Source: Firmicutes bacterium M10-2 (lineage in GTDB: Bacteria > Bacillota_I > Bacilli_A > Erysipelotrichales > Erysipelotrichaceae). From it: 47,205 bases of DNA. The DNA lies in NCBI GenBank assembly GCA_000403415.2, contig KE159692.1, forward strand, positions 1 to 47,205. The letters run 5' to 3'. Shown piece by piece: positions 5,418-9,266 of this stretch. Both the position numbers and the translations under genes were made by a program. The notes beneath the pieces are model-generated. The model saw nothing but the letters and a program-made list of their open reading frames with translations. It did no database searches and was not told the DNA's origin. Within the stretch, counting starts at the first letter, position 1; every line of letters begins with the position of its first letter.

Positions 5418-6929
5418 ATGGCAAAATTTTTTAAAGAACCATCTAGAACATTTAGTGAGTATTTACTAGTTCCGGGATATACCGGACCTGACTGCACACC
5501 GGATCGCGTATCCTTGAAAACTCCACTTGTGAAGTTCAGAAAAGGCGAAGAACCAGCTCTTTCTTTAAATATTCCAATGGTTTCTGCAGTAATGCAGGCT
5601 GTCAGTGGCGAGGAAATGGCATGTGCATTAGCCCGTGAAGGCGGAGTCAGCTTTATCTACGGAAGCCAGCCAATCGAATCTCAAGCAGAAATGGTAAAAA
5701 ACGTCAAATCAAGCAAAGCAGGATTCGTAGGTAGCGATTCAAATCTTTCCCCAGAATCGACTTTAGCCGATGTTTTGCGTTTGAAACAAAAAACCGGCCA
5801 TTCGACAATGGCAGTCACTGATACCGGAAAAAGAGACGGGACTCTTGTTGGATTGGTTACATCCCGCGATTTCAGAGAATCACGTATGGATAAAAAAACA
5901 AAAGTAAAAGAATTTATGACTCCATACGATAAACTGATTGTGGGAATGGATGGAATTTCTTTATCCGAAGCCAATGATATTATTTGGGATCATAAACTGA
6001 ATCAGCTTCCAATCGTTGATGAAGAACGTCACTTAAAAGCAATCGTGTTCCGTAAAGACTACGATTCCCATAAAGAAAATCCAAACGAATTGTTAGATGA
6101 CAATAAACGTTATGTAGTCGGAGCCGGGATAAACACACGCGACTATGCTCAACGTGTTCCTGCTCTTGTAGAAGCTGGGGTCGATGTTCTAGTCATTGAT
6201 TCTTCGGAAGGTTATTCTTGCTGGCAGGCGGATACAATCAAGTGGATTCGCGAACACTATGGCGACAGTGTAAAAGTAGGTGCAGGAAATGTTGTAGATG
6301 GTGACGGATTCCGTTTTCTGGCCGAAGCGGGAGCCGATTTTGTGAAAGTCGGAATCGGTGGCGGATCGATCTGCATTACTCGTGAACAAAAAGGAATCGG
6401 ACGTGGCCAAGCAACAGCGACATTGGATGTTGCTCAAGCACGAGATGAATATTACCGTAATACAGGAGTGTATATTCCGATCTGCTCAGATGGTGGAATT
6501 GTACACGATTATCATGTTACCTTGGCGCTTGCTTTTGGAGCCGATTTTGTGATGCTGGGAAGATATTTTGCCCGTTTTAAAGAAGCACCGAACAAACGCG
6601 TAAGCATCAACGGAAACTATATGAAAGAGTATTGGGGAGAAGGTTCGGCCCGTGCCCGAAACTGGCAAAGATATGATGTTGGCGGAGAAGGAAAAATGTC
6701 TTTTGTTGAAGGTGTCGATTCCTATGTTCCGTATGCAGGAAGTTTGAGAGACAATGTTGGATTGACGATTTCAAAGATCAAACATACGATGTGCAACTGT
6801 GGATGTTTGACCATTCCTGAACTGCAAAGAGATGCAAAAGTTACCTTGGTTTCTTCAACAAGTATTGTCGAAGGTGGTGCGCATGACGTTGTTGTGCGTG
6901 ATGAAAATATCGACGCAAAAGTACAATAA
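5418..6929 (+). CDS. guaB: IMP dehydrogenase
   Basis: It oxidises IMP to XMP with NAD+, the committed step of guanine nucleotide synthesis. The TIM barrel is interrupted by a CBS pair (roughly residues 95-225, including [20 protein letters not shown]). The catalytic cysteine is C319 in GSICIT, and the flap carries the Arg-Tyr pair in WQRYD. The loop after the cysteine reads [11 protein letters not shown] instead of the common bacterial RIVAGVGVPQ type, and the N-terminus ([10 protein letters not shown]) also departs from the standard form. It thus belongs to the divergent clade that also includes protist-like sequences. The 503 residues are typical. GGAGG is at good spacing before the ATG. 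Confidence 0.93.
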
Positions 6930-6956: not shown

Positions 6957-6962
6957 TACAAT
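6957..6962 (+). promoter_or_regulatory. -10 element for a leaderless transcript
   Basis: TACAAT ends exactly seven bases before the A of the ATG at 6969, which would place the transcription start on the start codon. There is no ribosome binding site between the guaB terminator and this ATG. No good -35 is seen, because the expected region falls in the terminator hairpin. Confidence 0.45.
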
Positions 6963-6968
6963 AAATTC

Positions 6969-8108
6969 ATGAAGAAAAGCGAAGATCTATTAATGGATAT
7001 CAGCATCCTTTATCGGAGCACTCAAAAATATTATGATCGGAAATTAGAACCATATAACATTACGTATGCTCAATTGCCGATCTTGCTGTTTATATTTGAG
7101 GAAGAAGGAATTACGATGCAAAAAATCGTTGAAATGGGAAGTTACGATAAAGGAACCGTGACCAAAAACGTAAAAAAATTGGAATCGCTTCATTATGTGG
7201 AAATTGTTGCTTCGAAAGAAGACAAACGTGTAAAGCATTTATACACTACATATCAGGCGAAACAAATTATTGCGAAAATATATAAGATCCGAAATGATTG
7301 GTGGAACCATATCATTCAGGATATCGATAAAAAGCAGCTGAAATTATTTGAAAAAATGTACAGCTCCATGTGTTTGAAAGCCAATGAATACGCAAATCTC
7401 GATCTTGACGAGCTTCGATTTTACGAATGGAGAAAATGTGCTTTGAATGCATATCCAGGATATATCAGTACCGTGTTGAAGGTGGGGGGATGCAATCTCA
7501 GATGCCCGGGGTGTTGTAAAAAGCATCTTGTGTTTTTAAAAGACGAACAGCAGACAATCGGAATCCAAGATGTGAAAATGTATTTGGAACAAAATAATTC
7601 CAATATCCAAGCCGTATCGATTGAAGGAGGAGAAATTGGCCTTCATCCTAATCTTTCCGTATTTTTCCGATGGCTCAAAGAAAAAGGGTTTTTAGTTAAA
7701 GTGAACACCAATGGGATGTATCCTCAACTGCTTGAATACTGGATTTCGAATCAATGGGTTGATTTTGTTGAACTGGATTTGAAAGGTACAATGGAAGATT
7801 ATCCAAAAGTCAGCGGTATACATGATCTCGATACTCATCCTATCTTACAGACTTTGTCGATTTTATCCTCAAAACGTATTGATCACCGATTCACGACCAC
7901 TTTGATCAAAGAATTTCACAATGAAGAAAAGTTGATTGAGATTGCTAAACAGCTTGGAACCGAAGCTCACTGGATCTGGTATGCGTATAACGAAAAAGAG
8001 GAGAGCATTCAAAAAGGACTGCATAGTTTTTCAGCTCAGGAAATGCGGTTGCTGAAAGAAAAAGTCGAATCCTACGTAGGAAGGATCGAAATCAAATGCA
8101 ATAGGTAA
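6969..8108 (+). CDS. MarR domain fused to NrdG2-like radical SAM protein
   Basis: This 379-residue protein joins two domains. Residues 1-145 read as a MarR-type winged helix: helices around YNITYAQLPILLFI, a recognition region GSYDKGTVTKNVKKLESL and a wing KEDKRVKHLY. From about residue 165 it is a radical SAM domain: VGGCNLRCPGC gives the CxxxCxxC iron-sulfur motif (C175, C179, C182), followed by EGGEIGLHPNL and VKVNTNGMYPQLLEYW, close to the NrdG2 type of anaerobic ribonucleotide reductase activase. SAM cleavage is inferred from the intact motif. DNA binding by the first half is also inferred. The ATG at 6969 has no ribosome binding site. An ATP-cone gene follows after 12 bases with its own AAGGTG, so the two are very likely one operon. 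The substrate is unknown. Confidence 0.8.
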   Translation: MKKSEDLLMDISILYRSTQKYYDRKLEPYNITYAQLPILLFIFEEEGITMQKIVEMGSYDKGTVTKNVKKLESLHYVEIVASKEDKRVKHLYTTYQAKQIIAKIYKIRNDWWNHIIQDIDKKQLKLFEKMYSSMCLKANEYANLDLDELRFYEWRKCALNAYPGYISTVLKVGGCNLRCPGCCKKHLVFLKDEQQTIGIQDVKMYLEQNNSNIQAVSIEGGEIGLHPNLSVFFRWLKEKGFLVKVNTNGMYPQLLEYWISNQWVDFVELDLKGTMEDYPKVSGIHDLDTHPILQTLSILSSKRIDHRFTTTLIKEFHNEEKLIEIAKQLGTEAHWIWYAYNEKEESIQKGLHSFSAQEMRLLKEKVESYVGRIEIKCNR

Positions 8109-8120
8109 ATAAGGTGAACT

Positions 8121-9266
8121 ATGAAATATATTGTAGAAAAAAGAGATGGAACGCTCGTAGATTTTCAAATTGAAAAAATAAGTAATGTGATAAAAAAAGC
8201 GTTTGGCTCATTACATAAAGAATGGGATGATTCTATTATCGAGCTTTTGGCATTGCGAGTCACAGCCGATTTCGAACCGAAAAAACAAGGCAATCGGATT
8301 GGCGTCGAGCAAATTCAGGATAGTGTCGAAAAAGTCCTTTCCGAATCCGGATATACAGAAGTATCCAAAGCGTATATTTTGTATCGCAAACAAAGGGAAA
8401 ACGTCCGTAAATTAGTCGAAGGCATACAAGATCCCAATTCCTTGATTTCAAGTTATCTGGCTTCTTCCAATGCCGGATATCCATTATCGAATCCGTCAAT
8501 GGAAAAATATATCGTATCAACGCTTATACGGCATTTTTGGATGGACGAGATTTTCGATGAAGAAATCAGACAAGCGCTCAAAGAGAAAAAAATTGTCATC
8601 CATCATATGGATACTTTAAAATACGAACATGTGAATTTCGCTTTAAGCACAATCCGTTTACCGACAGATCCGGTAGAAAAGATCATTCGGGTCTTTTTAT
8701 TGATTGATGACCTCCAAAAATATTTTGCGAATCGGATTACGCTCATCGATGAGAACCATCAATTGAAAGAAAAAGAGATTGAATTAGTGTCCGGCGTGTA
8801 TAATCACGTGAAAATCAAAGAGAAGGCGATCGAGCCAAACCAAAATATCATGATCCATTTATACGATGCAGAGCCGAAAAAAATCGAACTTGCACAACGT
8901 ATTGGAAAAGTATTCCAGGAGGTGCTCGGCCAATTGGAACAGATTGGATTTTTTCAATGCAAAGAATGCGAATTGCTTTTTGATAAATCTTTTAAGAGCA
9001 CGATTTGTTTTGATCAAGAAGAAATCATACCATTTGAAAAAGAACAAGGATTTCGATATATCCGGAAAAAGGTTCTGGACGGAGATGATCTGTTCACGCA
9101 ATTGGACCACGAAGTGGCTCAACAAGTGGATTTTTTGTTTGATTATGTAGAGTATACTGCACAGTTCACCGATCTAAGTGATACAGATGCGATCGATACG
9201 CTTCAAAAAATTATCAAAAAAAATTATCCGTTTATCAATTCTTTCATGATTCAGCCAAAAATATAA
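8121..9266 (+). CDS. ATP-cone protein with NrdD-like N-terminus, no glycyl radical site
   Basis: Residues 1-95 form an ATP-cone (VEKRDGTLVDFQIEKISNVI, IQDSVEKVLSESG, YILYRKQRENVRKL), the nucleotide-sensing module of ribonucleotide reductases and NrdR. The next part (SYLASSNAGYPLSNPSMEKY, VIHHMDTLKYEHVNF) resembles the stretch after the cone in class III reductase NrdD. The rest is not recognisable, and at 381 residues the protein is far shorter than NrdD (around 700). There is no C-terminal RVCGY-like glycyl radical motif. Cysteines occur as CKEC with one more nearby. With an NrdG-like protein directly upstream, it may be a degenerate or repurposed partner. It could instead be a nucleotide-responsive regulator. 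The function is not known. Confidence 0.75.
   Translation: MKYIVEKRDGTLVDFQIEKISNVIKKAFGSLHKEWDDSIIELLALRVTADFEPKKQGNRIGVEQIQDSVEKVLSESGYTEVSKAYILYRKQRENVRKLVEGIQDPNSLISSYLASSNAGYPLSNPSMEKYIVSTLIRHFWMDEIFDEEIRQALKEKKIVIHHMDTLKYEHVNFALSTIRLPTDPVEKIIRVFLLIDDLQKYFANRITLIDENHQLKEKEIELVSGVYNHVKIKEKAIEPNQNIMIHLYDAEPKKIELAQRIGKVFQEVLGQLEQIGFFQCKECELLFDKSFKSTICFDQEEIIPFEKEQGFRYIRKKVLDGDDLFTQLDHEVAQQVDFLFDYVEYTAQFTDLSDTDAIDTLQKIIKKNYPFINSFMIQPKI

Follow-up and report, generated by a model that had tools for sequence, protein, structure and literature searches.

Two adjacent genes in the genome of Firmicutes bacterium M10-2 encode proteins, P1 and P2, that together resemble a novel type of switch governing the supply of DNA precursors. 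We consider it likely that the two proteins jointly regulate transcription of the anaerobic ribonucleotide reductase (RNR) operon (nrdD, a small ORF and nrdG) and derive from a former activase/reductase pair, in which P1 would bind a palindrome at nrdD and P2 would act as the sensor. Such a pair is a concrete candidate answer to how the anaerobic, and often only detected, RNR is controlled in an order (Erysipelotrichales) without a recognisable NrdR, the RNR-specific repressor of most bacteria (PMC9110341).

The window, meaning the whole stretch of 47,205 nucleotides that was analysed, is part of contig C12 of a 2.4 Mb genome (G000; 22 contigs, 99.8% complete), and P1, P2 and the features assigned to them lie on its forward strand. 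The open reading frame of P1 has two possible starts (6954 or 6969, ending at 8108), and the ATG at 6969 was taken as the start because it agrees with the homologues, giving a protein of 379 aa (6969-8108). Upstream is guaB, encoding IMP dehydrogenase (5418-6929), with an intrinsic terminator between it and P1 (6928-6947, forward strand). The frame of P2 (381 aa, 8121-9266) opens 12 bases past the P1 stop codon and is followed by a tRNA-Leu and a gene that we take to be mnmA-like.

The initial annotation had described P1 as a MarR-type N-terminus fused to a radical SAM domain with CxxxCxxC, GGE and NTNG motifs, and profile matches and motifs bear this out. P1 matches MarR_2 (PF12802, E 7e-10) over residues 29-87, gives a MarR-type match to 3s2w (E 8e-14), and matches Radical_SAM (E 8e-10) over residues 173-328; its score of 120 bits against NrdG2 (TIGR02495) is just short of the curated 131-bit cut-off. 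The motifs are CNLRCPGC (CxxxCxxC, residues 175-182, 7491-7514), GGE (220-222) and NTNG (246-249). Both folds are present in an AlphaFold2 model with a mean pLDDT of 81, in which residues 2-141 form a MarR fold (3bpx, Z 17.7), placing the winged helix within residues 1-145 where it had been proposed, and residues 147-375 form a glycyl-radical-activase fold (pyruvate formate-lyase activase 3cb8, Z 23.6). P1 thus has the winged-helix DNA-binding domain of the MarR family (residues 1-141, 6969-7391) and the CxxxCxxC radical SAM domain of an NrdG2-like activase (7407-8093), and no cognate glycyl radical substrate stands alongside, as P2 has no glycyl radical domain. Because CxxxCxxC is retained in the P1 of the window, a role for the cluster or for SAM is possible in this protein.

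P2 begins with an ATP-cone (PF03477, E 5e-20, residues 4-93, 8130-8399), which is modelled with confidence and has the fold of the cones of class III RNR (9d3x, Z 13.8) and of NrdR (7p37, Z 13.2). The sequence matches NrdD up to about residue 176, and a segment further on (residues 247-283, 8859-8969) aligns to the NrdD barrel of relatives (hhalign E 3.5e-4). In the model of P2, pLDDT is below 50 over most of residues 112-295, the C-terminal 70 residues are better modelled, and fold matches are confined to residues 1-107. Neither a glycyl radical motif nor an equivalent of the thiyl-radical cysteine of the NrdD barrel (MCCR) was found in P2, and the C-terminal glycyl radical domain with its Zn site is missing from P2 and the neighbouring genes. 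The earlier description of a gene 12 bases downstream with an ATP-cone and NrdD-like sequence but no glycyl radical motif is therefore confirmed; calling it a truncated NrdD is right in that the protein is shortened, but understates the change, as most of the barrel is gone too and one short segment of it is recognisable.

A split NrdD, with the glycyl radical domain encoded in a separate nearby gene, had been named as the simple explanation that would undo the reading of a repurposed pair. No such domain is encoded near the pair, and a full NrdD lies on another contig (C20), so this candidate was rejected. The full class III RNR operon on contig C20 consists of nrdD (736 aa), a 75-aa ORF and nrdG (173 aa), and because no class I or II RNR large subunit was found in this genome, it is the only RNR detected there. 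In a search for NrdR, none of 63 genomes of the order, the genome of the window included, exceeded the cut-off; 9 of 14 control genomes were positive.

Searches with P1 at a threshold of E 1e-40 across 316 genomes from 80 genera of the order yielded MarR-NrdG fusion relatives in 165 genomes and 38 genera, usually adjoining a complete NrdD-glutaredoxin protein. In a 395-genome sample of the class, full-length matches that include the MarR part came from this order and from one genus of another family, and the remaining matches covered the radical SAM half only; the relatives in Lachnospiraceae are activases without a MarR domain that adjoin a full NrdD. The search for the two genes side by side, suggested at the outset together with a check for a full NrdD/NrdG pair, finds the pair in relatives as well as a complete nrdD-nrdG in the genome of the window. 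Both proteins are present in another species of the genus (G001), at 59% identity for P1 and 50% for P2, and this retention indicates that the pairing is more than chance.

The operons were retrieved, P1 and the downstream proteins were aligned, and a tree of P1 was built. Downstream of P1, active operons encode a complete NrdD of about 790 aa. It has the equivalent of Cys79, the thiyl cysteine (MCCR), Zn cysteines and the RITGYY glycyl radical motif, and it carries a glutaredoxin-like tail with CPxC. The thiyl cysteine is missing in 23 operons, and the P1 tree requires three independent losses of catalysis, each forced by starred branches: in a main clade of 19 operons, the one in the window among them, in G025, and in G081/G116/G144. 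Catalysis has, on this tree, been lost at least three times, and the pair is the descendant of a working activase/reductase operon. Downstream proteins in the main clade are mostly 650-680 aa long and retain the Zn cysteines and the glycine, and the most reduced forms are those of the window (381 aa) and G001 (373 aa). In longer relatives (loci L067, L072, L073, L076 and L091-L098), the glycyl radical motif (RVxGYY) and the Zn cysteines are present without the thiyl cysteine. In two genomes (G015 and G068), P1 has also lost cluster cysteines of its radical SAM domain. The fusion has no adjoining NrdD in four genomes; at the g41 loci of this kind (L139, L142, L145 and L146), the next gene reads like a GH1 glucosidase, and three of these four g41 genomes have a glutaredoxin-type NrdD elsewhere.

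The pattern of conservation in the inactive clade is the reverse of that in the active operons. Mean pairwise identity in active operons rises from the MarR domain (0.47) through the radical SAM domain (0.54) and the ATP-cone (0.67) to the other NrdD segments (0.73-0.92), and the corresponding values in the inactive clade are 0.57, 0.37, 0.63 and 0.45-0.58, with the barrel at 0.45-0.57, leaving the MarR domain as the best-conserved part of P1. Between the two species of the genus of the window, the MarR domain is 75% and the radical SAM domain 47% identical, and in P2 the ATP-cone is 90% and the rest 36% identical. For pairs of inactive-pair genomes with measurable dS, dN/dS is 0-0.09 for the MarR domain, 0.02-0.11 for the ATP-cone and 0.08-0.17 for the radical SAM domain. 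By these measures the pair is under selection that is strongest on the predicted DNA-binding and nucleotide-binding domains, and constraint in the clade of the window has evidently shifted from the catalytic domains to the MarR domain and the ATP-cone.

Features upstream of the pair are also shared within the main clade. The gene immediately 5' of the pair is guaB at nearly all main-clade loci, a conserved purine-metabolism neighbourhood. A candidate -10 element, TACAAT (6957-6962, forward strand), ends 6 bases 5' of the P1 start codon in the window, and a candidate -10 hexamer ending about 6 bases before the start codon is found in 15 of 19 main-clade operons versus 1 of 68 active operons; Shine-Dalgarno sequences are rare upstream of P1 in the main clade. 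A -10 element so near the start codon, together with the rarity of Shine-Dalgarno sequences, suggests that the P1 mRNA is leaderless.

The upstream regions of active fusion operons have in common an 18-bp palindrome near the start codon, TAGTTGAANNTTCAACTA or TAGTTGGANNTCCAACTA, which stands before the operon's own start at 14 bits or more in 62 of 68 cases. A weight matrix was trained on the sites of active fusion operons only and then run on canonical nrdD promoters. All 20 scored inactive-pair genomes of the main clade and g41 have a site at the canonical nrdD, at 18.3-28.0 bits and with its 5' end 25-88 bp upstream of the nrdD start. As G025 and G307 have one too, the total is 22 of 22 testable inactive-pair genomes; G221 was left out of the count, its assembly holding no other nrdD. 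The best of 3000 shuffled promoters reached 13.7 bits, and no site was found at the nrdD promoters of 20 fusion-less genomes (best 12.0 bits) or of 4 more outside g41. Fisher's exact test of 22/22 against 0/20 gives p 2e-12, a value that is inflated by the relatedness of the genomes. In the genome of the window, TAGTTGAACGTTCAACCA lies about 40 bases upstream of the nrdD ATG and is the sole match in the genome at one mismatch or fewer. Of 17 genomes with an active operon, 8 have a site of at least 16 bits at the second nrdD, and a site is present there in 10 of 10 further g41 genomes. The palindrome, which varies with lineage (TTGGA in g41, TTGAA in the main clade), is shared by the fusion operon and nrdD.

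Each of the three catalytic losses falls in a lineage with a site at the canonical nrdD, as would be expected if control of the second enzyme preceded decay. We infer that the first enzyme, once it controlled the second, was free to decay into the regulator of the second.

A perfect one-to-one rule between fusion and nrdD operator was rejected, being broken in both directions. Five g41 genomes have the site with the fusion below threshold (G095, G105, G127, G129 and G141); the fusion of G141 may have been missed because the second NrdD is at a contig edge, and contig ends do not account for G105 or G129, which have the site without a detected fusion. Conversely, three SOLO genomes have the fusion and an NrdD without the site. 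At the pair's own promoter, a site of at least 14 bits is present in 8 of 19 main-clade operons, and the window and 10 others have no strong site there; within the window, a search for the operator gave two matches only, each with two mismatches, which equals chance expectation. A large regulon is not supported, as the genome of the window has 6 matches at two mismatches or fewer versus 16 for a backwards control, and only nrdD stands out. Extra palindrome sites in other genomes are mostly within unrelated open reading frames.

These exceptions bear on the possibility that the nrdD palindrome serves another MarR-type regulator and that the pair does something else. The five g41 genomes with sites and no detected fusion fit that account, as does the missing site at the promoter of the operon in the window; yet a single palindrome, with its lineage-specific variants, marks fusion operon and nrdD alike, and outside g41 the site is at none of 24 nrdD promoters from genomes without the fusion, which makes a separate regulator quite unlikely. 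The idea that the pair is a decaying pseudogene remnant of a second RNR operon draws on the stepwise shrinkage of NrdD, from about 790 through about 670 to 373-381 aa. However, dN/dS is well below 1 for all domains in the inactive-pair genomes, the frames are intact across the clade of 19 operons, and the MarR domain is more conserved than in active operons; pseudogenes were rejected on dN/dS and conservation, and we regard this explanation as extremely improbable.

Two further readings keep a function for the radical SAM domain. In one, P1 does regulate nrdD, with redox, iron or SAM as the signal, perceived through the [4Fe-4S] radical SAM domain, and P2 is an accessory or stabiliser. CxxxCxxC is retained in the window and in most relatives, and a cluster would fit the control of an oxygen-sensitive enzyme, but the two genomes whose P1 has lost cluster cysteines still have the pair and the nrdD operator, and no part of P1 evolves faster than the radical SAM domain, whereas identity within the genus reaches 90% for the ATP-cone of P2; we consider this reading unlikely. 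It is very unlikely, in our estimate, that P1 instead still functions as an activase, acting on the canonical NrdD or on some other protein, with P2 as an adaptor or inhibitor of NrdD/NrdG at the protein level. Intact radical SAM motifs in the window, the activase fold of the P1 model and the RVxGYY glycyl motif in most longer relatives would suit such an enzyme, but the canonical nrdD is followed by a dedicated nrdG, constraint is weakest on the radical SAM domain, and both the MarR domain and the nrdD operator would be left unexplained.

The preferred reading is that the pair controls nrdD through the DNA-binding domain of P1 and the ATP-cone of P2. The MarR domain would bind the palindrome at the nrdD promoter, and because this site is near the start of the transcript, P1 probably represses nrdDG. 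P2 would contact the NrdG-like half of P1 in the way that NrdD docks on NrdG, and ATP or dATP on its cone would set the affinity of P1 for DNA. ATP-cones sense ATP/dATP in the anaerobic RNR NrdD (PMC11226230) and in NrdR (PMC9110341), which makes dATP the natural signal for the pair, and high dATP would be predicted to shut nrdD down, as it does with NrdR. The initial annotation had proposed a repurposed pair that combines DNA binding with nucleotide sensing, such as a regulator of anaerobic nucleotide metabolism; this part is well supported, with the canonical nrdD promoter as the predicted target. Radical chemistry as part of the joined function is not supported, as conservation within P1 is lowest in the radical SAM domain in the clade, two relatives have lost cluster cysteines, and no glycyl substrate is left in the window; nothing was found in support of a modifying enzyme with a new target.

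In outline the pair resembles NrdR, the Zn ribbon and ATP-cone repressor of RNR operons (PMC9110341, PMC12176259, PMC12051234), in that an ATP-cone would serve the transcriptional control of RNR genes from an operator at an RNR promoter. It is not a member of the NrdR family: P2 has the ATP-cone fold but starts with it, there is no N-terminal Zn ribbon in the same chain, and DNA binding would fall to the other polypeptide, in which a MarR domain is joined to an NrdG-like one. The palindrome TAGTTGAANNTTCAACTA also differs from the paired NrdR boxes, and the ATP-cone of the pair is a remnant of NrdD. P1 is a MarR-family protein by fold and, as in that family, has a putative palindromic operator, recognised by comparison only, between promoter and start in active operons; unlike the family, it has a C-terminal radical SAM activase domain, an ATP-cone partner and an RNR operon as its predicted target. 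The likeness to class III RNR NrdD/NrdG (PMC11226230) is one of ancestry, with the gene order surviving in relatives that have a complete NrdD and its glutaredoxin-like tail; P2 has lost most of the barrel along with the thiyl cysteine and the glycyl radical domain, and P1 differs in having a MarR domain and a radical SAM half whose constraint has decayed.

Trigger enzymes are enzymes that also bind DNA, such as BirA and PutA. The ancestral active operon is comparable, with an activase that itself contains a DNA-binding domain and whose gene is preceded by an operator, but in the pair both partners have lost catalysis and apparently regulate only a paralogous enzyme. The open-access literature yielded nothing relevant on a MarR-NrdG fusion or on an RNR regulator in Erysipelotrichia. 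A rare graded series survives, from complete enzyme through inactive scaffold to ATP-cone remnant, and it illustrates how an enzyme, together with its activator, can end up regulating its own paralogue. Should P2 sense dATP, this would be a second recruitment of the ATP-cone for the transcriptional control of RNR. A bolder version, to which we give about even weight for and against, is that an RNR and its radical SAM activase became, in at least three independent events, a transcription regulator that senses dATP, is dedicated to the surviving paralogue and stands in for NrdR in this order, and that the glycyl radical of the longer relatives may itself act as a signal, for example of oxygen.

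Some additional loci were noted in the course of the comparison. G307 has, besides its inactive pair, an operon with a complete NrdG2 lacking a MarR domain and an NrdD-glutaredoxin, with the palindrome in front (L257:1082, G307:C106), and all three operons of this genome have a site. In another genome, a second copy of the palindrome (L264:1508, G013:C2) separates nrdG from an hcp-like gene (hybrid cluster protein). Finally, stand-alone ATP-cone proteins of 172-374 aa adjoin a B12-binding-type radical SAM gene in three fusion-less genomes (L084:5164-6288, L021:1273-1791 and L024:1438-2007), and these neighbours are possibly another ATP-cone/radical SAM pair.
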